This document shows, one piece after another, positions 33,407 through 44,917 of a stretch of DNA of 64,000 nt (the stretch's first letter is position 1; each line of letters begins with the position of its first letter). Source of the stretch: Rhodocytophaga aerolata (lineage in GTDB: Bacteria > Bacteroidota > Bacteroidia > Cytophagales > 172606-1). The DNA lies in the NCBI RefSeq assembly GCF_030503435.1, contig NZ_JAUKPO010000003.1, positions 310,001 through 374,000 of the forward strand, written 5' to 3'. The position numbers and the translations under genes are program-made. The notes beneath the pieces were generated by a model. That model did no database searches and had not been told where the DNA came from. It saw nothing but the letters and a program-made list of their open reading frames with translations.

Positions 33407-33622
33407 GTATATCTACTCAAGTAACCAAATTTAACGATGTGACTATAAACTATATATGAATAATTATACGCTAAGCATTTTTACGTTAAACCTAAGACAA
33501 AAATTAAAAATAGGACTTATCCAAAAGTAAATATTATATATTCAATAATAATCAAAATTTTCTGTAATATTTTTTGCATAAATGAGGAATTTTAGCAAAC
33601 TTAACCCACTTTTTAGATTGAA

Positions 33623-33682
33623 ATGAACTTAAATAGAGTCAATTTATTCCTTCTTCTCATTCTACTGGTGGTACTTCAGTAG
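33623..33682 (+). CDS. ilv leader peptide 1
   Basis: 19-codon ORF ending in TAG: MNLNRVNLFLLLILLVVLQ. Eight Leu, three Val and one Ile make 12 of 19 residues branched-chain. The densest run, LLLILLVVL, lies just before the stop. Such a peptide is the sensor in ribosome-mediated attenuation: a ribosome stalled for lack of charged tRNA-Leu, -Val or -Ile frees the downstream RNA. The CTT CTT CTC codons themselves form hairpin strand 1. Confidence 0.8.
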   Translation: MNLNRVNLFLLLILLVVLQ

Positions 33683-33732
33683 CATGAGAAAGGTGTATTA
33701 TATACGTAAGCCTTTCTCAAACAGAAAGGCTT
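33649..33732 (+). promoter_or_regulatory. Attenuator 1: mutually exclusive RNA hairpins
   Basis: Strand 1, CCTTCTTCTCAT (33649-33660, inside the Leu codons), can pair with strand 2, ATGAGAAAGG (33684-33693). Strand 2 can instead pair with strand 3 (TGAGAAAGG 33685-33693 with CCTTTCTCA 33711-33719), which blocks the strand 3-4 terminator (33708-33732). This is the classic protector / antiterminator / terminator set. Pairings were derived by eye. Confidence 0.75.
33708..33732 (+). terminator. Attenuator 1 terminator
   Basis: Perfect 10-bp stem AAGCCTTTCT (33708-33717) with AGAAAGGCTT (33723-33732), loop CAAAC, followed by a T run to 33736. Confidence 0.88.
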
Positions 33733-33781
33733 TTTTATCTAATAAGGGATATGCATACATTGTCAAGAAAATATTCTAAAA

Positions 33782-33805
33782 ATGCTTGTTGCTCTACTTT
33801 TATAA
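33782..33805 (+). CDS. ilv leader peptide 2 (mini-leader)
   Basis: Seven-codon ORF ATG CTT GTT GCT CTA CTT TTA TAA, peptide MLVALLL: four Leu and one Val of seven residues. It lies between the two terminators and 28 bases before the second. Translation of so short an ORF is inferred only from composition and position. Confidence 0.5.
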   Translation: MLVALLL

Positions 33806-33833
33806 GTAAACAACAGGTAATCTATGTATAATG

Positions 33834-33864
33834 AAAAGCCTTTCCATGAATGGGGAAGGCTTTT
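33834..33864 (+). terminator. Attenuator 2 terminator
   Basis: Stem AAAAGCCTTTCC (33834-33845) with GGGGAAGGCTTTT (33852-33864) containing one G-T pair, loop ATGAAT, followed by T residues. It ends 49 bases before ilvE. Its 5' arm is also complementary to the 3' arm of terminator 1 (GAAAGGCTTTT), so the two units can interact. Confidence 0.85.
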
Positions 33865-33913
33865 TTTGTAAGTATAGTTACCAACGAACGAAACAAAATT
33901 TTTTAAAAGCGGA

Positions 33914-34810
33914 ATGTATCATACGAAAGATTCGATTGTTTACCTGAACGGCAAATTTGTGAAGGCGTCAGAGGCTACGTGCAGCTTGTATTCACAAACC
34001 GTTCATTACGGAATGGGTGTATTTGAAGGAATCCGTTCTTACCACACACAGCATGGCACCAGACTGTTTAAAGCCAGAGAGCATTACGAACGTTTGCTAC
34101 ACTCGGCACAACTCATGCAAATTCCTCATTCTTTGCATATAGAGGAATTAATTCAAGCCACTTATTTGCTGTTAGAAAAAAATAACCTGGAAGATGCCTA
34201 TATCCGTCCTTTAATTTATATGGATGAAAATATGAGCTTACAGGTAAAAAAAGATTCTACGTCTAATTTATTTATAGCCGCCTGGCAATGGGACAAGTAC
34301 TTAGGTGATAAACGCATTCATGTGTATATTTCTTCATTTATGCGGCCAAGTCCCAAAGCTTTTCCAGTAGAAGCCAAAACCTGTGGTAACTATGTAAATT
34401 CCATTCTAGCTTCCACCGAAGCCCGTAATGCTGGCTATGATGAAGCTATTCTACTGGACCAGAATGGATTTGTAGCCGAAGGCGCCGCCTCTAACTTATT
34501 TATTGAAAAAAATGGCAAATTATATACGCCTCCCCGTGGAAATATATTACCCGGTGTTACCCGGGGAGCCGTTATGGAGATGGCCAAAGAGAAGGAGATT
34601 GAGGTAATTGAAAAATTGTTTACTACTGATGAATTATATGCCGCAGACGCTGCTTTCCTGACAGGAACCGCCGTAGAAATAGCTCCCATCAAATCTGTAA
34701 ACAAAATTCAATATAAGAAGGAATATCACCATACCATTACCTACGAACTGGAAAGAGATTTCAAGCATTTTGTGCGGAACTACCACGATCCGGCTTATAC
34801 TATTATATAA
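33914..34810 (+). CDS. ilvE: Branched-chain amino acid aminotransferase
   Basis: 298 residues, fold-type IV PLP enzyme. The N-terminal VYLNGKFVKASEATCSLYSQTVHYGMGVFEGIRSY, the PLP lysine K155 in EAKTCGNYVNS, and DEAILLDQNGFVAEGAASNLFI and PRGNILPGVTR are family motifs. It makes Leu, Ile and Val from their 2-oxo acids with glutamate, the final step of the pathway. First gene of the ilv-leu cluster, 49 bases after the second attenuator terminator. Having the last enzyme first is common in this phylum. Confidence 0.93.
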   Translation: MYHTKDSIVYLNGKFVKASEATCSLYSQTVHYGMGVFEGIRSYHTQHGTRLFKAREHYERLLHSAQLMQIPHSLHIEELIQATYLLLEKNNLEDAYIRPLIYMDENMSLQVKKDSTSNLFIAAWQWDKYLGDKRIHVYISSFMRPSPKAFPVEAKTCGNYVNSILASTEARNAGYDEAILLDQNGFVAEGAASNLFIEKNGKLYTPPRGNILPGVTRGAVMEMAKEKEIEVIEKLFTTDELYAADAAFLTGTAVEIAPIKSVNKIQYKKEYHHTITYELERDFKHFVRNYHDPAYTII

Positions 34811-34858
34811 AACAAACTACCTATTGTTTAACCCCTTATTGTACATAAAGAATTTTTA

Positions 34859-36559
34859 ATGGAAACCTCCCAAAACACCTCTACACAGCCACTCAATAAA
34901 TACAGTGCCACCTTAACGCAGGACGAAACACAGCCAGCCTCCCAGGCGATGCTGTATGGCGCAGGATTCACCGAAGAAGATATGTCTAAAGCGCAGGTAG
35001 GTATTTGCAGTACCGGGTATGAAGGAAATACCTGTAATATGCACCTGAATGGACTGGCTGCCCAGATCAAAAAAAGTGTGTTGGATACTAAACTCGTCGG
35101 CCTTATTTTCAATACCATAGGCGTAAGCGACGGTATTTCCATGGGAACACACGGCATGTCGTATTCCTTACCCTCCCGCGACATTATTGCCGATTCCATA
35201 GAGACTATTTCCGGTGCTCATTATTACGATGGCCTTATAACCGTGGTAGGTTGCGATAAAAATATGCCTGGTGCCATGATAGCTATGAGCCGGCTGAACC
35301 GTCCGTCATTGATGGTGTATGGCGGAACCATTAAATCAGGCTTGTATAAAGGCGAAAAATTAAATATTGTTTCTGCGTTTGAAGCTTTAGGCAAAAAATC
35401 GGCAGGTACTATCTCAGAACAAGATTTTAAACAAGTAATAAAGAATTCTATTCCAGGTGCCGGGGCTTGCGGTGGCATGTATACAGCTAATACCATGGCT
35501 TCGGCTATTGAAGCGATGGGCATGAGCTTACCCTATAGTTCTTCTTCCCCTGCTTTAAGTGAACGGAAAAAACAAGAATGCCGCATGGCAGGCCCGGCCA
35601 TATTAGAATTACTCAAGAAAGACATTAAGCCGAAAGACATCATGACCTATGAGTCATTCCTGAATGCTATTAAGCTTACTACCATTCTAGGAGGTTCTAC
35701 CAATGTAGTGCTACACTTACTAGCCATTGCTAAATCTGTAGGTGTAAAATTGTCTCTGAAAGATTTCCAAAAGGTGAATGATGAAGTGCCACTTCTGGCA
35801 GACCTGAAACCCAGCGGTAAATACATGATGGAAGACCTGGATGCGGTGGGAGGGGTGCCAGCCATTCTGAAAATGCTTTTGAAAGAAGGAATTATTAACG
35901 GAGACTGCCTGACCGTAACTGGAAAAACCTTACGGGAAAACCTGGAACAAGTAGAAGATATGCCGGCCGGACAAGATATTATCCGTCCATTCAGCAACCC
36001 TATTAAAGAAACCGGACACATCCGAATTTTATTTGGTAATCTGGCCGAACAGGGAGCGGTAGCCAAGATAACTGGCAAAGAAGGAGAAAAATTCGACGGT
36101 GAAGCCATTGTTTTTGACTCGGAAGATGAACTAAATGACGGAATTTTAACTGGTAAAGTAAGGGCCGGCCATGTAGTAGTAATCCGCTATGTAGGACCTA
36201 AAGGTGGACCAGGTATGCCAGAGATGTTAAAACCAACAGGTGCTATCATGGGAGCAGGATTAGGAAACAGCGTAGCCTTAATTACTGATGGCCGCTTTTC
36301 TGGAGGTACACATGGCTTTGTAGTAGGCCACATCACACCAGAGGCGCAGGATGGAGGTACTATTGCCTTAGTAAAAAATGGAGACAGAATAGTAATAGAT
36401 GCCGTAAATAATACGATAGACTTAGCCGTATCCGGAGAGGAAATTACCCGCAGAAAAACTGCCTGGGTAGCTCCACCATTGAAAGCAACATCCGGGGTAC
36501 TAAGAAAATACATTAAAACCGTTTCTTCAGCTTCTGAAGGATGCGTGACAGATTTATAA
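34859..36559 (+). CDS. ilvD: Dihydroxy-acid dehydratase
   Basis: 566 residues, IlvD/Edd family. Iron-sulfur and metal motifs include [28 protein letters not shown] and [17 protein letters not shown]. The later region has [30 protein letters not shown] and [41 protein letters not shown]. It dehydrates 2,3-dihydroxy-3-methyl acids to 2-oxo acids in the Val, Ile and Leu pathways. ATG at 34859, 48 bases after ilvE, and 10 bases before ilvB. Confidence 0.95.
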
Positions 36560-36569
36560 TTAACGAAAC

Positions 36570-38309
36570 ATGGAAGCATTAACCAAGCAAACTTTAAGCG
36601 ATCAATCAGAAAAACAAGTAAGTCAAATTGTATCAGGTGCAGAAGCACTTTTACTGGGCTTACTGGAAGAGGGAGTAGATACGATTTTTGGTTATCCGGG
36701 CGGTGCCATTATGCCCATTTATGATGCCCTGTATGGATATCAGGATAGATTGAGGCATATTTTAGTGCGTCATGAACAGGGGGCTACGCATGCAGCCCAA
36801 GGCTATGCCCGCGTAACCGGAAAAACAGGAGTAGTGTTTGCTACGTCAGGCCCTGGGGCTACTAACTTGATTACTGGTATTGCCGATGCACAGATAGATT
36901 CTACGCCAATGGTGTGTATTACTGGCCAGGTTGCCACGCCACTTTTGGGGACAGATGCTTTCCAGGAAACAGATGTACTAGGTATTTCTATGCCGGTCAC
37001 TAAATGGAATTATCAGGTTACCGATGTAACAGAACTACCTGAAGTGATAGCCAAAGCTTTCTTTATCGCCAGAACTGGCCGCCCCGGCCCGGTATTGATA
37101 GATATTACCAAAGATGTACAGTTTGCCAAATTTGAATATACTTACAAGAAATGCGAAAAAATCAGAAGTTATGCTCCGTATCCAAAGGTAAATAACGATG
37201 ATATAGAAGCCGCTGCTAAATTGATTAATGCTGCTAAAAAACCATATATTCTGGCAGGCCATGGCATTTTAATATCTGGTGCACAGAAAGAATTACTGGC
37301 AGTGGCTGAAAAAGCAGGGGTTCCGGTAGCTTCTACCTTACTAGGCTTATCTGCTTTTCCATGTAATCATCCCTTGTATGTGGGTTACCTAGGGATGCAT
37401 GGCAACTATGGCCCAAATGTAAAAACCAATGAATGTGACTTGTTAATTGCCATTGGTATGCGTTTCGACGACCGGGTAACCGGCGATTTAAAAACGTATG
37501 CCAGACAAGCCAAGGTAATTCATATTGAAATTGACCCATCGGAGATCGATAAAAATGTAAAAACAACAGTTGCTATTAATGCCGATGCAAAAGCTGCCTT
37601 GAAAGCCTTATTACCCAAACTAAAAGAAAACAAGCATGATAAGTGGGTAAATGAATTCAGGGAGTGTGATAAAATTGAGTATGAAAAAGTAGTAAATAAA
37701 GCCTTGCACCCAGCTGAAGGAGGTTTGTTAATGGCAGAAGTAGTAAACGTTATTTCTGAAATGACTAAAGGCGAAGCCATTGTAGTAACCGATGTAGGAC
37801 AACATCAGATGGCAACTTCCCGGTATTATAAATATAATACCACAGACAGCAATGTTACCTCTGGCGGATTAGGCACTATGGGTTTCGCTTTACCGGCAGC
37901 TATGGGTGCCAAAATAGGAAGGCCAGATAAACAGGTAGTGGCTATTATCGGCGACGGTGGCTTTCAGATGACCTTACAAGAATTAGGTACTATCTTTCAG
38001 TTTAATATTGGCGCTAAAATAGTGATTCTCAATAACAGCTTCTTAGGTATGGTTCGCCAGTGGCAGCAGCTATTTTTCGATAAGCGCTACTCTGCCACTG
38101 AAATGACCAACCCGGATTTTGTAGCCATTGCCAGAGGTTTTTATATCAATGCTGCTAAAGTTTCTTTACGAGAAGAGTTGAAGCAATCTATTCAAACGAT
38201 GCTGGACCACAACGGACCCTATTTACTGGAAGTAGTGGTAGAGAAGGAAGAAAACGTATTCCCAATGGTTCCTGCCGGAGATTCAGTAGGAAATATCCGT
38301 TTAGAGTAA
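36570..38309 (+). CDS. ilvB: Acetolactate synthase large subunit
   Basis: 579 residues, thiamine diphosphate enzyme. The N-terminal domain has YPGGAIMPIYDALYGYQDRLRHILVRHEQGATHAAQGYARVTGK (catalytic Glu in HEQ). The FAD domain is central, and the C-terminal domain has the ThDP motif GDGGFQMTLQELGTIFQFNIGAKIVILNN. It condenses pyruvate with pyruvate or 2-oxobutanoate, the committed step. It works with the small subunit encoded downstream. ilvD and ilvB are 10 bases apart, so tightly co-transcribed. Confidence 0.95.
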   Translation: MEALTKQTLSDQSEKQVSQIVSGAEALLLGLLEEGVDTIFGYPGGAIMPIYDALYGYQDRLRHILVRHEQGATHAAQGYARVTGKTGVVFATSGPGATNLITGIADAQIDSTPMVCITGQVATPLLGTDAFQETDVLGISMPVTKWNYQVTDVTELPEVIAKAFFIARTGRPGPVLIDITKDVQFAKFEYTYKKCEKIRSYAPYPKVNNDDIEAAAKLINAAKKPYILAGHGILISGAQKELLAVAEKAGVPVASTLLGLSAFPCNHPLYVGYLGMHGNYGPNVKTNECDLLIAIGMRFDDRVTGDLKTYARQAKVIHIEIDPSEIDKNVKTTVAINADAKAALKALLPKLKENKHDKWVNEFRECDKIEYEKVVNKALHPAEGGLLMAEVVNVISEMTKGEAIVVTDVGQHQMATSRYYKYNTTDSNVTSGGLGTMGFALPAAMGAKIGRPDKQVVAIIGDGGFQMTLQELGTIFQFNIGAKIVILNNSFLGMVRQWQQLFFDKRYSATEMTNPDFVAIARGFYINAAKVSLREELKQSIQTMLDHNGPYLLEVVVEKEENVFPMVPAGDSVGNIRLE

Positions 38310-38336
38310 AAGGCAGCTCAATACAAATTATATAGA

Positions 38337-38362
38337 TGAATCTCCTATAAAAGGGAGATTCA
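38337..38362 (+). other. Hairpin between ilvB and ilvN
   Basis: 9-bp stem TGAATCTCC (38337-38345) with GGAGATTCA (38354-38362) and no T run, so more likely an mRNA processing or stability element than a terminator. Confidence 0.5.
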
Positions 38363-38408
38363 CTTCAAAATTTAACAAACCTTCCCTGAAAAAGAATAAA
38401 TTTACCCC

Positions 38409-38990
38409 ATGGAACATCCAAATGGCTATAGTACAGAAGTAAAACTTTTTGTAATTTCTGTGCTAACTGAAAATAAAAGTGGATTATTAAATGCCATTAC
38501 TATTATCTTTACCCGCCGGAAAATAAATATTGAAAGCATTAATGTTTCTGAATCAGAAGTAGCTGGTGTAAGCCGCTATACCATTGTAGTAAAAATTACC
38601 CGTGAACGGGCTGAGAAACTGGTAAAACAGGTCCGAAAACTGATTGAAGTGCTGGGCGCTTTTTTATATGAGGAAGAAGAAACGCACTTTCAGGAACTGG
38701 CTTTATACAAAGTGCCCTTAGAGCCTTTCCTCAATGATAGCAACAACCGGATAGAAAAACTGATCCGCGATAATTTTGCAAGGATATTAGTAATCGAAAG
38801 AGAATATATTATTATAGAGAAAACCGGCCGTAAGTCAGAAACGCAAAAGCTGTTTGAAGAACTGAAGGCCTATGGCGTATCGGAATTTGTGCGGTCCGGG
38901 CGGATTTCCATATCCAAATCAAAGCGACGGACAGAAACTTTCCTCAAAGAACTGGAAGAACTGAGCGCCAATTCTTTAGTAAAGGAATAA
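38409..38990 (+). CDS. ilvN: Acetolactate synthase regulatory small subunit
   Basis: 193 residues. An N-terminal ACT domain (about 8-85: LFVISVLTENKSGLLNAITIIFTRRKINIESINVSES) binds valine for feedback inhibition. The ALS small-subunit C-terminal domain follows (about 90-180: ARILVIEREYIIIEKTGRKSETQKLFEEL). It raises activity of IlvB and makes it sensitive to valine. TAAATTTA at 38397-38404, a partial -7 box with no -33 partner, lies four bases before the ATG. Length 193 is slightly above the usual 160-175. Confidence 0.92.
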   Translation: MEHPNGYSTEVKLFVISVLTENKSGLLNAITIIFTRRKINIESINVSESEVAGVSRYTIVVKITRERAEKLVKQVRKLIEVLGAFLYEEEETHFQELALYKVPLEPFLNDSNNRIEKLIRDNFARILVIEREYIIIEKTGRKSETQKLFEELKAYGVSEFVRSGRISISKSKRRTETFLKELEELSANSLVKE

Positions 38991-38994
38991 AACA

Positions 38995-39022
38995 GATGTG
39001 CTGGTATGCTCATATGCTGGTT
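38995..39022. repeat. Copy of the GATGTGCTGAT-type intergenic repeat
   Basis: 28 bases starting GATGTGCTGGTATGCTCATA. They align to 14080-14110 with three substitutions and one 3-base gap. The copy starts five bases after the ilvN stop. Confidence 0.5.
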
Positions 39023-39230
39023 ACAGATTATACTTTTTAAGATGTAATTCTTGTGCGATAGGTGGTGCAGTAACAGCGCGGACTTTTTGGGCATGTGCAG
39101 TTGCCAGAGGCTGTGGGCCTGCCTTTTCAGGCGTAAAAAAATCTCTGTTGGTGCTGTCTTTTTGTTTTGTTACTTTTATTTTGGACAAGCAAAATAAAAG
39201 TAAGAAGCCCTCGATGAGGTAATTAATCAA
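39023..39230. repeat. Probable dispersed non-coding element between ilvN and ilvC
   Basis: About 200 bases of G+C-richer sequence than the flanks, open on both strands (225 and 210 bases) without protein-like content. The minus-strand frame contains KVTKQKDSTNRDFFTPEKAG, a type of sequence I associate with repeated, over-annotated small ORFs in Bacteroidota intergenic repeats. Whether it is repeated in this genome cannot be seen here. It separates two genes of one pathway by 321 bases. Confidence 0.35.
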
Positions 39231-39311
39231 TATTATTACAACCTGTTGGCTTACATAATCTTAATTCAATTTATATTATTTTTTAAACCCCTTTTCAATT
39301 ATTAACTAAAC

Positions 39312-40355
39312 ATGGCAAAAATTAAATTCGGAACGGTTGAAGAAAATGTAGTGACTAGAGAAGAGTTCCCCCTCGAAAAAGCACGTGAAGTGTTGAAGAA
39401 CGAAACCATTGCTGTTATTGGCTATGGTGTACAAGGCCCAGGCCAGTCGTTAAACATGCGTGACAATGGATTTAATGTAATCGTTGGTCAACGGAAGCCC
39501 TCTAAATCTTGGGATCATGCGGTGAAAGATGGTTTTGTAGAAGGCAAAGACTTGTTTGAAATCGAAGAAGCATTACAGAGAGGTACGATTATTTGTTACT
39601 TACTATCTGACGCCGGACAAATTGCTATGTGGCCAACAGTTAGCAAATACCTGACAGAAGGCAAAACTTTGTATTTCTCTCACGGATTTGGTATTACCTA
39701 CAAAGAACAAACTGGTATTATTCCACCTAAAAATGTAGACGTTATTCTGGTAGCTCCTAAAGGTTCTGGTACCAGCTTGCGGAGACTATTTTTAGAAGGA
39801 CAGGGCTTAAACTCTAGCTTTGCCATCTTCCAGGATTATACTGGCAAAGCCAAAGATAAAGTAGTGGCAATGGGTATTGGCGTAGGTTCAGGCTATTTGT
39901 TTGAAACAGATTTCAAAAAAGAGGTATACAGTGACTTAACCGGCGAAAGAGGTACTTTAATGGGTGCTATTCAAGGTATTTTTGAAGCACAATACAACAT
40001 ACTCCGCAAAAGAGGCCACTCACCTAGTGAGGCTTTTAACGAAACGGTAGAGGAGCTTACCCAGAGTTTAATGCCGCTGGTAGCCGAAAATGGGATGGAT
40101 TGGATGTATGCCAACTGCTCTACCACTGCTCAGCGTGGTGCCCTAGATTGGCGTCATAAATTCCGCGATGCCGTAGCTCCGGTGTTCGAGGAATTATACG
40201 AAAGTGTAGCCACTGGTAAAGAAGCCGAAAGAACCATAAAACTGAACAGCCAGCCAGATTACCGAGTGAAACTGGAACAAGAGTTGAAAGAACTGAGAGA
40301 ATCAGAAATGTGGCAGGCAGGCTTGCAAGTGAGAAAATTAAGACCCAAAAAGTAA
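39312..40355 (+). CDS. ilvC: Ketol-acid reductoisomerase
   Basis: 347 residues, class I length. The Rossmann domain has IAVIGYGVQGPGQSLNMRDNGFNVIVGQRK (NADPH-specific loop QRKPS). The C-terminal knotted domain carries metal-binding DLTGERGTLMGAIQGIFEAQY and the Glu in FNETVEELTQSLMP. It converts acetolactate or acetohydroxybutyrate to dihydroxy acids. It is separated from ilvN by the repeat region and followed by a strong hairpin, so it may have its own promoter. Confidence 0.94.
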   Translation: MAKIKFGTVEENVVTREEFPLEKAREVLKNETIAVIGYGVQGPGQSLNMRDNGFNVIVGQRKPSKSWDHAVKDGFVEGKDLFEIEEALQRGTIICYLLSDAGQIAMWPTVSKYLTEGKTLYFSHGFGITYKEQTGIIPPKNVDVILVAPKGSGTSLRRLFLEGQGLNSSFAIFQDYTGKAKDKVVAMGIGVGSGYLFETDFKKEVYSDLTGERGTLMGAIQGIFEAQYNILRKRGHSPSEAFNETVEELTQSLMPLVAENGMDWMYANCSTTAQRGALDWRHKFRDAVAPVFEELYESVATGKEAERTIKLNSQPDYRVKLEQELKELRESEMWQAGLQVRKLRPKK

Positions 40356-40372
40356 AATATAGCTCTTAGTTT

Positions 40373-40415
40373 ATAGGTATCGGATGAATAAAGTAATTTT
40401 ACATCTGATACCTAT
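40373..40415 (+). terminator. 14-bp hairpin between ilvC and leuC, overlapping a leader ORF start
   Basis: ATAGGTATCGGATG (40373-40386) pairs with CATCTGATACCTAT (40402-40415) with one G-T pair. TCTTTATTTTTT follows. The ATG of the leader ORF is the last three bases of the 5' arm, so translation of that ORF and hairpin formation exclude each other. Confidence 0.65.
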
Positions 40416-40464
40416 TCTTTATTTTTTACATAGCCTATTACTAACATTGGATGGCAAACTATGA
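40384..40464 (+). CDS. Hydrophobic leader ORF overlapping the leuC start
   Basis: 26 codons from ATG 40384, ending with TGA at 40462-40464, which overlaps the leuC ATG (40461-40463) as ATGA. The peptide begins [20 protein letters not shown]; 13 of its 26 residues are Leu, Ile or Val. It could couple leuC translation to branched-chain aminoacyl-tRNA supply. T-rich DNA alone tends to encode Leu, Ile and Phe, so this may be chance. Confidence 0.4.
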
Positions 40465-41864
40465 GTGCAACAACCTTATTCGATAAACTATGGGACAGCC
40501 ATGTGGTAAACCGCAGAGAAGGCTTTCCTGACGTATTATATATTGACCGGCATTATATTCATGAAGTAACCAGTCCACAGGCATTCGATGGATTGCGTAA
40601 ACGGGGGATTCCGGTTGCCCGCCCTGACAGAACAACGGCTACCGCCGACCACAATGTTCCTACCAAAGATCAACACCTGCCGATTAAAGAAGCCTTATCC
40701 AGGTTTCAGGTAGAAACCCTCCGGAAAAATTGCCGGGAGTTCGGCATTGAATTGTACGACTTGCTTCACCCATTCCAGGGCATTGTACACATCATTGGTC
40801 CGGAACTGGGATTAACCCAGCCAGGCATGACGATGGTTTGCGGAGATAGCCATACTTCTACGCATGGGGCTTTTGGCAGCATTGCTTTTGGTATTGGTAC
40901 CAGTGAAGTAGAGCAAGTTTTAGCAACACAATGTATATTGCAGTACAAGCCCAAGCAAATGCGGATTGAGGTAAATGGAAAGCTGGGTAAAGGCGTATTA
41001 TCAAAAGATATTATTCTCTACATTATTTCCCAGATTTCTTCCAGTGGCGGCAACGGCTATTTTGTAGAATATGCAGGTTCGGCTATTACCAATCTTTCCA
41101 TGGAAGCCCGCATGACTATCTGCAACATGAGCATTGAAATGGGTGCCCGCGGCGGATTAATTGCTCCAGACCAGACAACATTCGATTATGTAAAAGGTAG
41201 AAAGTTTGCACCGCAAGGTGAAGCGTTTGAAGAAGCCATTGCTTACTGGAAAACCCTTAAAACAGATGAAGGAGCCCAATACGATAAAGTATTGACCTTC
41301 AATGCCGAAGATATCGAGCCCATGATTACCTATGGAACCAATCCTGGAATGGGTATTGGTATCACTGAACGTATTCCAACGGTAGCAGAATTGAAAGACC
41401 ACCGTGAAGAAGCTTCGTTTAAAAAATCACTGGAGTACATGGCCCTGGAGCCAGGTTCTCAACTGCTTGGTAAATCGTTAGATTATGTATTTATCGGCAG
41501 TTGCACAAATGCCCGCATTGAAGATCTGCGTCTGGTAGCTGATTTTGTAAAAGGTAAAAGGAAAGCAGCTAATGTAGAGGTACTCGTAATTCCAGGTTCT
41601 AAACAAGTAGAACAGCAAGCCATCAGAGAAGGACTGGATAAGGTTTTTGAAGAGGCAGGCTTTGAGTTAAGAAGCCCGGGTTGTTCAGCCTGTTTGGGAA
41701 TGAATGAAGACAAAGTACCTGCTGGTAAATATTGTATTTCTACCTCTAACCGGAATTTTGAAGGCCGCCAAGGACCAGGTGCTCGTACGTTCCTTGCCAG
41801 TCCACTTTCAGCTGCTGCTGCTGCCATTACTGGTAAAGTAACTGATGTGCGGGAATTGATTTAA
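40461..41864 (+). CDS. leuC: 3-isopropylmalate dehydratase large subunit
   Basis: 467 residues, aconitase superfamily. Iron-sulfur cysteines are in [15 protein letters not shown] and SPGCSACLG. Substrate motifs include [52 protein letters not shown] and [21 protein letters not shown]. It isomerises 2-isopropylmalate to 3-isopropylmalate with the small subunit encoded next. ATG at 40461 gives the standard N-terminus ([14 protein letters not shown]). Confidence 0.95.
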
Positions 41865-41884
41865 TTTCATTGAATAAATTTTAT

Positions 41885-41931
41885 AAACTTGAAAAGTTTT
41901 TACCAGATGATATAAAAAACTTTTCAAGTTT
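41885..41931 (+). other. 17-bp hairpin between leuC and leuD
   Basis: Perfect arms AAACTTGAAAAGTTTTT (41885-41901) and complement (41915-41931), 13-base loop, 20 bases before the leuD start. It lies between two subunits of one enzyme, so mRNA processing or tuning of subunit ratio is more likely than full termination. Confidence 0.55.
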
Positions 41932-41951
41932 TCAGCCTTTATTTTTATCTC

Positions 41952-42536
41952 ATGCAAAAAGAGAAATTCAAATCACTTACCTCTACCGTAGTTCCACTGC
42001 CGATAGAGAATATAGATACAGACCAGATTATTCCAGCCAGATTTTTAAAGGCTACCACCCGTGAAGGTTTCGGTGAGAACCTGTTCCGCGACTGGAGGTT
42101 TGATAACAATGGTAACAAAAAAGATTTTATCCTCAACAATCCTAATTATTATGGGGATATCCTGGTGGCTGCCAAGAACTTTGGCTGCGGCTCTAGCCGT
42201 GAACATGCTGCCTGGGCTATCCATGATTATGGCTTCAAAGTAGTAATCTCTAGTTTCTTTGCGGATATTTTTAAAAATAATGCCCTCAATAATGGGCTGT
42301 TGCCAGTACAAGTCTCGGATGAGTTTTTAAGCAAAATATGGGCACAATTAGAGGCCGATCCACATTCTACAATAGAGGTAAATCTGGAAGCGCAGAAAGT
42401 CATCTTAGCGGATGGTTCTTCAGAAAGCTTTGATATTAATCCTTATAAAAAAGCTTGTTTATTGAATGGCTATGATGATATAGATTATTTGCTGAGCTTA
42501 AAAGATAGAATAACCCAGTTTGAATCTGCAAATTAA
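41952..42536 (+). CDS. leuD: 3-isopropylmalate dehydratase small subunit
   Basis: 194 residues, aconitase swivel domain: [76 protein letters not shown]. It pairs with LeuC. 87 bases after leuC and 26 bases before leuB. The length fits the family. Confidence 0.95.
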
Positions 42537-42562
42537 ATTCTAATACACCACTTAACAACAAC

Positions 42563-43639
42563 GTGAGAGAATACAAAATAGTAGTAATGCCTGGCGATGG
42601 CATTGGTAAGGAAGTTACCACCTGGGGCAAAAAAGTGCTGGAAAAAGTTACCGCTAATTCAGGTGTACATTTTTCATTCGATGAAGCCCTTATTGGGCAT
42701 ACAGCCATTGAAGCCACTGGCAATCCACTGCCAGACGAAACCTTAGAAAAACTGAAAGCTTCGGATGCCGTGCTTTTTGGTGCGGTAGGTCATCCCAAAT
42801 ACGATAATGATCCTTCGTTAAAAGTCCGTCCAGAACAGGGCTTACTAAAAATGCGGAAAGAGTTAGGGTTGTACGCCAATTTACGCCCCATCAAATTATT
42901 CGATGAACTCATTCATGCCTCCAGTATCAAACCTGAAATTTTGAAAGGTTCCGATATATTATTTTTTAGAGAACTAACCGGGGATGTCTATTTCGGTGAA
43001 CCCCGTGAACGCCGCGACAATGGCAATGTAGCGTTAGACACTATGATCTATTCTAAGTTCGAAGTACGTCGCATAGCCAAACGTGCTTTTGAAGCTGCCC
43101 GAACCCGCCGGAAAAAAGTGACATCTGTAGATAAAGCCAATGTACTGGAATCTTCCAGGCTGTGGCGCGAAGTGGTGCAGGAAATGGCAAAAGATTATCC
43201 GGATGTGGAAGTAGAACATATGTTCATTGATACAGCCGCTATGAAACTAATCAAAGATCCTCGATCTTTTGATGTAGTGCTTACCGGTAATTTATTCGGC
43301 GACATTTTAACAGATGAAGCTTCGCAGATCGCTGGCTCTATGGGGATGCTTGCCTCCGCTTCTTTAGGAGATATTACTGGTTTGTATGAACCAATCCATG
43401 GTTCTGCCTATGATATTGCCGGTAAAGGAGTAGCTAATCCATTGGCTTCCATTCTATCAGTAGCTTTAATGTTAGATATTTCTTTTAACCTGAAAGCAGA
43501 ATCAGAAAGAGTAATTAAGGCTGTAGAAGCCACGCTGAAAGAAGGTTTCCGCACCAGAGATATTGCCGATAGCACTACTCCTGCTGATAAAATTATAGGC
43601 ACCGATGCCATGGGCGAAAAAATTGTTGAAAAGATTTAA
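42563..43639 (+). CDS. leuB: 3-isopropylmalate dehydrogenase
   Basis: 358 residues from a GTG start at 42563; no ATG is available before the essential VMPGDGIGKEV motif. NAD-dependent decarboxylating dehydrogenase motifs are present: LRPIKLF, FFRELTGDVYFGEPRERRDNGNVALDT, VDKANVLESSRLWREVV, GNLFGDILTDEASQIAGSMGMLASASLGD and YEPIHGSAYDIAGKGVANPLA. It produces 2-oxoisocaproate, the leucine precursor. 26 bases after leuD. Confidence 0.95.
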   Translation: MREYKIVVMPGDGIGKEVTTWGKKVLEKVTANSGVHFSFDEALIGHTAIEATGNPLPDETLEKLKASDAVLFGAVGHPKYDNDPSLKVRPEQGLLKMRKELGLYANLRPIKLFDELIHASSIKPEILKGSDILFFRELTGDVYFGEPRERRDNGNVALDTMIYSKFEVRRIAKRAFEAARTRRKKVTSVDKANVLESSRLWREVVQEMAKDYPDVEVEHMFIDTAAMKLIKDPRSFDVVLTGNLFGDILTDEASQIAGSMGMLASASLGDITGLYEPIHGSAYDIAGKGVANPLASILSVALMLDISFNLKAESERVIKAVEATLKEGFRTRDIADSTTPADKIIGTDAMGEKIVEKI

Positions 43640-43741
43640 TGTACATTTTTAATATAAATCCTTAACTTTCAATCTTTAAACTTTCCTTACGCTGAATCGG
43701 CGTACAGAATGTATAGGTATTACTAACAAAACCATTTTATC

Positions 43742-44917
43742 ATGAGCGATAGAGTCTATATCTTCGACACTACCTTAAGAGACGGCGAGCAGGTTCCTGG
43801 CTGCCAGTTAACAACCAAAGAAAAAATTGAAATTGCTATTGAACTGGAAGCCCTCGGTGTAGATATTCTCGAAGCCGGATTCCCTATTTCCAGCCCTGGC
43901 GATTTTAATTCGGTAGTGGAAATATCTAAAGCTGTTCGCAATCCAATAATCTGTGGACTAGCACGTGCAAAAAAAGAAGATATTGAAATTACAGCTGACG
44001 CACTCAAGTTTGCTAAATATAAAAGAATTCATACCGGTATTGGGTCTTCCGATATGCATATTAAATACAAGTTTAATAGCACCCGGGAGAAAATTTTAGA
44101 ACAAGCTGTTTGGGCCGTAAAATATGCGAAAAGCTTTGTAGAAGATGTGGAATTCTATGCAGAAGATGCCGGACGTGCCGATCTTAACTTTCTGGTGCAA
44201 CTGGTAGAGGCCGTTATTGGTGCCGGAGCTACTGTGGTAAATATTCCGGATACAACCGGCTATTGTTTGCCTCATACGTTTGGTAACCGCATTAAATATG
44301 TATTTGAGCATGTAAAGAATGTTCACAAAGCTACTATATCTGTGCATTGCCACAATGACCTGGGCTTAGCCTCGGCTAATGCTGTGGAAGGCTTGGTAAA
44401 TGGTGCCCGCCAAGTAGAAGTGACCATGAATGGAATAGGGGAGAGAGCTGGTAATACTTCTTTAGAAGAAGTAGCCATGATTCTAAAAACTCACCAGGAT
44501 TTAAAGCTCCATACAAATATCAATACAAAATTAATTTACCCAACAAGTTTACTGGTTTCTGAACTGATGCGTATGCCGGTTCAGCCGAATAAAGCTATTG
44601 TTGGTAAAAATGCCTTTGCTCACTCTTCTGGTATTCATCAGGATGGTTTCCTGAAGCATGCGGAGAACTACGAAATTATTAACCCACAGGAAGTAGGTAT
44701 TCCTTCTTCTTCTATTGTACTGACAGCCCGCAGTGGCCGCCATGCGTTGAAGCATCGCCTGGAGCTACTAGGGTATAGCTTCGATAAAGCTGAACTGGAT
44801 GATATGTACAAAAAGTTTATTGCATTAGCTGATGAGAAGAAGCTGATTACTGACGAAGATTTGCAGGAACTGGTAGCTGAGCAATACCCTGTAAAAGCAG
44901 AAGCTAACCGGAAATAA
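43742..44917 (+). CDS. leuA: 2-isopropylmalate synthase, short form
   Basis: 391 residues. The catalytic TIM barrel starts [20 protein letters not shown] and has the metal-binding [23 protein letters not shown] and [17 protein letters not shown]. The accessory subdomain includes [17 protein letters not shown]. The protein ends at about the point where the roughly 120-residue leucine-binding regulatory domain of classical LeuA (about 510-520 residues) would begin. Homocitrate synthase or a related enzyme is possible for such short forms, but the leuCDB context supports LeuA. Last gene of the cluster, with a very long terminator after it. Confidence 0.88.

Follow-up and report, generated by a model that had tools for sequence, protein, structure and literature searches.

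A candidate branched-chain amino acid attenuator followed by a second serial terminator upstream of the ilv-leu operon of Rhodocytophaga aerolata, and tandem attenuator candidates in related Bacteroidota

On balance, we favour a reading of the ilvE leader of Rhodocytophaga aerolata, moderately probable in our estimation, in which a single ribosome-mediated attenuator senses branched-chain amino acids (BCAAs) and is followed by a conserved, serial intrinsic terminator with no BCAA-sensing function of its own. The window analysed is a 64,000-nucleotide stretch of contig NZ_JAUKPO010000003.1, to which all coordinates refer; all features described are on the plus strand. The gap upstream of ilvE in the open reading frame (ORF) map of the window is 507 bases long (33407-33913), which is the leader length given in the initial annotation. 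It precedes a putatively controlled operon, ilvE-ilvD-ilvB-ilvN-ilvC-leuC-leuD-leuB-leuA (33914-44917), in which the gene names are our reading of the proteins encoded by the ORFs. A tblastn comparison recovered the identical gene order from ilvE to leuA in a genome of the same genus (G001). Folding of the leader RNA (33600-33913) had been proposed with the initial annotation, and this RNA is far more stable than its shuffled counterparts (z = -5.96, with 0 of 100 shuffles as stable).

The first attenuation unit (unit 1) begins with ORF1 (33623-33682), encoding the leader peptide MNLNRVNLFLLLILLVVLQ. As annotated, this peptide has 19 codons and 12 Leu/Ile/Val residues (8 Leu, 3 Val and 1 Ile). 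The counterpart in the same-genus genome is MFIKRILAPFLLILLVVNW, and the other family genomes encode Leu/Ile/Val-rich peptides at this position. Unit 1 therefore has a leader ORF whose codons are rich in the amino acids of its own ilv-leu operon and which is kept in relatives. Five of the eight Leu codons in ORF1 are CTT, CTC or CTA, which together make up 23% of the Leu codons in ten neighbouring genes. A protector (strand 1, 33654-33667) lies within Leu/Ile codons and is 93% complementary to 33677-33690, while strand 2 (33677-33693) runs across and past the ORF1 stop codon and includes the antiterminator strand TGAGAAAGG at 33685-33693. An alignment shows that AATGAGAAAGG, from the strand 2 region, is present in the same-genus genome too. 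The antiterminator (2:3) pairs 33685-33693 with 33711-33719 at nine of nine positions. The terminator T1 (strands 3 and 4 with a U-run, 33708-33737) consists of a hairpin at 33708-33732 (-12.5 kcal/mol) and the T-run behind it. The strand layout and T1 stand as first described; the protector had been placed at 33649-33660, which does not hold, and the antiterminator strand, given as 33684-33693, needed only a small correction. The exact antiterminator/terminator pattern of unit 1 occurs once in the 9.07 Mb genome, and a pattern search of that genome found no second copy. Directly upstream of ORF1, CTTAACCCACTTTTT (33600-33614) is identical in the same-genus genome within an otherwise variable stretch. 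It is perhaps near the transcription start; inspection by eye gave no convincing Bacteroidetes-type promoter before ORF1.

Complementarity, constrained folds and cross-species pairing all describe 1:2, 2:3 and 3:4 as mutually exclusive structures. When RNA up to 33695 was barred from pairing, T1 formed (0.97), and when RNA up to 33670 was barred and transcription extended to 33722, the 2:3 pairing formed (0.98). Once strand 4 has been made in the stalled state, T1 prevails at equilibrium (0.84 vs 0.12 for 2:3). Unit 1 is very likely to be a ribosome-mediated attenuator that controls Leu/Ile/Val biosynthesis genes. BCAA attenuation of the ilv-leu operon, as originally suggested, is strongly supported for unit 1 by comparison across the family and class, by strand and position controls and by cross-species pairing, but not for the second sensor that had been attributed to the downstream terminator (see below).

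To place unit 1 in a wider context, ilv and leu genes were mapped in 100 ilvD neighbourhoods from 99 genomes (G025 was used twice). This survey of the class and order has roughly one genome per genus, with several genera repeated, and was chosen by hand rather than at random from the matches listed, which gave an IlvD match in 198 of 291 order genomes and 58 of 295 class genomes. The family set comprises seven genomes (G000 to G006); G007 was left out as it had no IlvD match at the cut-off. A further set of 60 loci from the family designated f74, also hand-chosen and not random, was taken mostly from the top-scoring of the 109 genomes (out of 149) with an IlvD match. The f12 leaders resemble the named Hymenobacter locus L005, in keeping with the assignment of the window to Cytophagales.

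Our detector required a mini-ORF rich in Leu/Ile/Val and, behind it, an intrinsic terminator. Under strict settings, it called a unit in 32 of the 66 ilvD-ilvB operons surveyed, and in 5 of the 34 loci that lack a nearby downstream ilvB. The 34 ilvD-ilvB operons with no called unit include three family genomes that do have unit 1 (G002, G003 and G005), which the class detector misses on account of a six-of-ten peptide or a GTG start. As a control, 29 units were called from the 75 terminators that precede the first ilv gene, compared with 6 from 185 terminators in other plus-strand gaps and 1 from 174 on the reverse strand. We then measured pairing between the strand around each peptide stop codon and the 5' arm of the same unit's terminator, and compared it with pairing after arms were permuted between loci. 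Across 93 units, including that of the window, own pairing averaged -13.98 kcal/mol vs -9.39 kcal/mol when permuted (z = -15.4, with kinship ignored), and none of 5000 permutations fell below -10.49 kcal/mol. These 93 units admit six-of-ten peptides in the f74 part and seven-of-ten peptides elsewhere, and some doubtful calls were kept. As the sequences differ between species yet the pairing is kept, this suggests that antiterminators of the unit 1 type are working elements.

The codons of the leaders are also unusual. In 42 leaders CTA accounts for 26% of Leu codons, vs 6% in the mapped genes, and GTC for 47% of Val codons, vs 9%. Sensitive attenuators are expected by theory to use rare codons (PMC1183508), and the enrichment agrees with this expectation. 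Leu contributes 58 of 147 Leu/Ile/Val residues in the 14 leaders with at least three different leu genes in the same 18-kb locus, and 77 of 299 in the 25 leaders with no leu gene in the locus. In this large class of Bacteroidota, BCAA operons seem commonly to be under leader-peptide attenuation.

Several loci depart from this arrangement. In L127, L131, L132, L139, L143 and L151, leuA, leuC, leuD and leuB lie, partly or wholly, directly upstream of ilvD, and the detector called no BCAA leader unit in the stretches fetched for these loci. Some other form of control may act on these ilv-leu clusters, or the retrieved sequence may not reach as far as the leader. Locus L193 (G069) has a BCAA-type leader unit between ilvD and ilvB, which suggests that attenuation may act inside an operon too. 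Wide gaps separate ilv genes in L123, L124 and L122 (G002, G004 and G006), including that from ilvB to ilvN in L123 (roughly 1.9 kb); the rest of the gene order resembles that of the window.

The second terminator of the window, T2 (strands 5 and 6 with a U-run, 33834-33868), has the annotated arms 33834-33845 and 33853-33864, which are 92% complementary. A hairpin is present at the T2 position in all seven family genomes. It follows T1 by 100-108 nt in six of them and by 184 nt in G004, and in G003 and G005 only four T residues follow it. A pair of predicted serial terminators is a trait of the window's family. The 3' arm of T1 can pair with the 5' arm of T2 (4:5), as had been pointed out, at 11 of 11 positions (33724-33734 with 33834-33844). 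The energy of this pairing is -14.3 kcal/mol in the window and ranges from -9.7 to -18.4 kcal/mol over the seven family genomes. It is not species-specific (own -12.8, cross -11.8 kcal/mol; 13% of permutations were as good, n = 7), and 8.7% of 2450 random terminator-arm pairs were as strong as the pairing in the window, so the likeness of terminator cores accounts for part of it. Strand 2 of unit 1, considered as another partner for T2, gave similar values (own -14.3, cross -13.8 kcal/mol in the family genomes). In a constrained fold with 2:3 held and transcription extended to 33851, the 4:5 pairing formed (0.98); at equilibrium with strand 6 made, T2 reached 0.90 vs 0.00 for 4:5.

These parts can be assembled into a model in which T2 obeys the same signal as T1. 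When charged tRNA is sufficient, the ribosome would reach the ORF1 stop codon and cover strand 2, allowing T1 (3:4) to form. When Leu (and probably also Val or Ile) is short, the ribosome would stall on Leu/Val/Ile codons, 2:3 would pair and the polymerase would pass T1. The 2:3 pairing would also free the 3' arm of T1 (strand 4), which could capture the 5' arm of T2 (strand 5) before strand 6 is made. A polymerase that leaked through a formed T1 would meet an intact T2, which would act as a back-up that cuts leakage. Both the 2:3 and 4:5 steps would need kinetic control, because T1 and T2 win at equilibrium. We infer the stalling, the read-through and the release of T2 through 4:5; the parts, their conservation and the pairing of unit 1 are seen at the sequence level.

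Alternatively, T2 could be gated by translation, with a ribosome on ORF2 (and ORF3) covering the 5' arm of T2, so that T2 would open only during translation of ORF2 and add another input to the BCAA shortage read at T1; we consider this possible but rather unlikely. ORF2 (MHTLSRKYSKNACCSTFISKQQVIYV, 33751-33831) is a candidate translated ORF whose stop codon lies 3 nt before the 5' arm of T2, and a ribosome placed at this stop leaves T2 at only 0.08 in the fold. Six of the seven family genomes have a comparable ORF: their first ATG downstream of T1, at a distance of 10-25 nt, starts a frame 20 or more codons long, which either continues through T2 or stops no more than 10 nt from it; shuffled sequences yield such an arrangement in 8-25% of cases per genome. 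The ORF2 stop codon overlaps the start of ORF3 (MYNEKPFHEWGRLFL, 33824-33871), which spans T2, and the same-genus genome has an equivalent overlap, with MYNLKPFPCRKRLFC as the counterpart of ORF3 at the same place. However, the comparison involves few genomes that are related to each other, and in G004 the first ATG after T1 opens only five codons, a longer ORF beginning 109 nt after T1. The ORF2 peptide is poorly conserved and not Leu/Ile/Val-rich; judged by eye, its BCAA content is low in G006, G002 and G003/G005, and ordinary in G001 (5 of 28) and the window (5 of 26). The ribosome would also have to catch the polymerase within about 100 nt. Strand exchange was ranked before translation gating as it needs only parts already demonstrated. 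Both mechanisms fit the sequence of T2; they are not mutually exclusive, and neither is proved.

T2 is unlikely to be a leaky terminator without regulation, a stabilising hairpin, or the end of a small RNA transcribed from the T1-T2 interval. The interval does lack a dedicated antiterminator for T2 (no species-specific partner was found within it in the seven family genomes; own -8.0, cross -8.8 kcal/mol), its length is nearly constant outside G004, and it has small-RNA family matches below threshold (e.g. MicC with 32.8 bits against a threshold of 90). However, a strong terminator that blocked nine genes without regulation would carry a high cost, the window gave no Rfam hit at threshold, and the interval sequence differs between genera. 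A hairpin before T2 (33783-33819) has a folding z of -2.31 in the window and -1.85 in G001, and is weaker or absent in the other five family genomes (Stouffer combination over six genomes, -1.95).

The initial annotation had described two complete-looking attenuation units, the second formed by T2 and a seven-codon ORF, MLVALLL (33782-33805). This ORF exists in the window, in a frame different from that of ORF2, but it is absent from the six other family genomes (the same-genus genome and five others), and no ATG occurs at its position in the G001 sequence aligned to it. The 5' arm of T2 pairs with the region around the MLVALLL stop codon at only -4.4 kcal/mol, vs -14.9 kcal/mol for unit 1, and just 3 of the 93 called units are as weak. 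MLVALLL was therefore rejected as a conserved second BCAA sensor, being found in one of seven family genomes and having no antiterminator near its stop codon. Among relatives, what is conserved is unit 1 and the T2 hairpin, and not this peptide; T2 keeps the hairpin and U-run of an intrinsic terminator, and the claim of a complete second unit is not confirmed. Given a peptide that relatives lack and a T2 without a dedicated antiterminator strand, we read T2 as a serial back-up terminator and not as a second sensor. MLVALLL and T2 could instead form a second BCAA attenuator that arose recently in this species, which we regard as improbable. Five of the seven residues are Leu or Val, only 7 of 3000 shuffled versions of the T1-T2 interval contained a mini-ORF as rich in Leu/Ile/Val, the distance from stop codon to terminator (28 nt) is like that of real units, and the hairpin before T2 begins within the MLVALLL codons. 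Weak matches to Phe_leader (E = 0.12, 23.8 bits, below the gathering score of 55) and Thr_leader also fall at unit 2. The improbability of MLVALLL by chance, the sub-threshold Phe_leader matches and the 34 operons with no called unit are among the points that count against our preferred reading, a single attenuator followed by a non-sensing terminator. That the whole leader is chance complementarity is very improbable; terminator cores are alike across the class and some cross-pairing is expected, but the conservation, the position control and the permutation test all oppose it.

Complete pairs of BCAA units are found in other members of the class. The f74 loci probably belong to Flavobacteriaceae, based on their likeness to the named MAG L002; of the 60, 12 have two complete units, 22 have one and 26 have none. 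In 10 of the 12 tandems a type A terminator (CCTTC...GAAGG) is followed by a type B terminator (CTGTATC or GATACAG), and the single units are of type A in 12 loci, type B in 8 and another type in 2. This distribution is as expected if an old A+B pair had lost one member in several lines. Outside f74, the class survey contained two convincing units only in G051 and G386 (one genus, from the window's order). Together with G324 (which belongs to f74) and L002, the 12 f74 loci and these two give 16 tandem loci, each with two self-contained sets of ORF, antiterminator and terminator. Tandem calls with one doubtful member (G455, G328, G136 and G124) were not counted. The antiterminators of the 16 loci fit their own terminators (-13.2 and -15.1 kcal/mol) better than the other unit's (-10.0 and -7.4 kcal/mol), and own pairing exceeds permuted pairing whether the unit is first (z = -6.2) or last (z = -4.4) in its locus, with 0 of 5000 permutations as good in each case. 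The predicted strands of the two units are mostly orthogonal, and clean mutational tests would be possible. Both peptides are Ile/Val-rich and Leu-poor in 11 f74 tandem loci, and in the f74 tandem peptides GTC makes up 46% (A) and 83% (B) of Val codons vs 12% in genes. At L230, the two units (MTTYTNSIIISIIIRSTE and MPTYTNSIIISIIIRSIE) are nearly identical, which suggests a recent duplication; their terminators are identical, and a third terminator with no called peptide lies further upstream.

Judged from sequence, true double BCAA sensors exist elsewhere in this class. The general idea of tandem BCAA attenuators in this phylum is therefore a good one, and the window locus is not its best example. 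More tentatively, serial terminators behind BCAA leader peptides could be a recurrent design across the class, a proposal we hold to be plausible but somewhat short of probable. The A+B pair of f74 would read Ile/Val via orthogonal strands, as filters in series that sharpen the response and cut leakage, while in the window's family T2 would be released by strand exchange or by translation of ORF2, making a coupled or a two-input gate.

Leader-peptide attenuation is a classical mechanism, best known from Proteobacteria and Actinobacteria, and ribosome-mediated BCAA attenuators are known from the ilv and leu leaders of Proteobacteria and the ilvB leader of Corynebacterium. The leader in the window shares with these an amino-acid-rich short ORF, mutually exclusive hairpins and an intrinsic terminator before ilv genes. 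Unlike them, it has a second conserved terminator and no Rfam family at threshold. Rfam 15 at its thresholds identified no family in the window, nor in the eight related loci scanned; a permissive scan matched unit 1 to Phe_leader below threshold (E = 0.0016, 32.2 bits, gathering score 55), with MicC and Thr_leader among the other matches of this kind. Leader-like short ORFs have been noted in Bacteroides thetaiotaomicron (PMC7366714), and the Bacteroid-trp RNA (RF01692) is a leader-type cis-element of Bacteroidetes (PMC2864571) that has been likened to the E. coli trp leader (PMC6414381). Bacteroid-trp and the leader in the window are both leader-type elements of biosynthetic operons, the former for tryptophan and the latter for BCAAs, and the RF01692 model has no match in the window or its genome. 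Our literature search found no BCAA attenuators in Bacteroidetes and no tandem leader-peptide attenuators that respond to the same signal, although its coverage was incomplete and Lopatovskaya et al. 2010 may overlap. The window contributes a well-supported case of such an attenuator together with a conserved second terminator, and the tandem form comes from its relatives. The rimP leader also has two serial terminators, the upstream one with a potential antiterminator and the second in tandem with it (PMC2965389); it concerns other genes in another phylum, and its description there mentions no amino-acid leader peptide. The tandem attenuators of Salmonella mgtCBR, which are called a singular example in PMC3641672, likewise place two attenuators one after the other, with two leader ORFs, but their signals differ (ATP and proline) and their stems are unlike intrinsic terminators. 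The terminators described here are intrinsic, and in other families both peptides of the tandem loci are rich in Ile and Val. If serial attenuators with the same signal are real, they would provide a natural test of whether stacked terminators buy steeper or tighter control.
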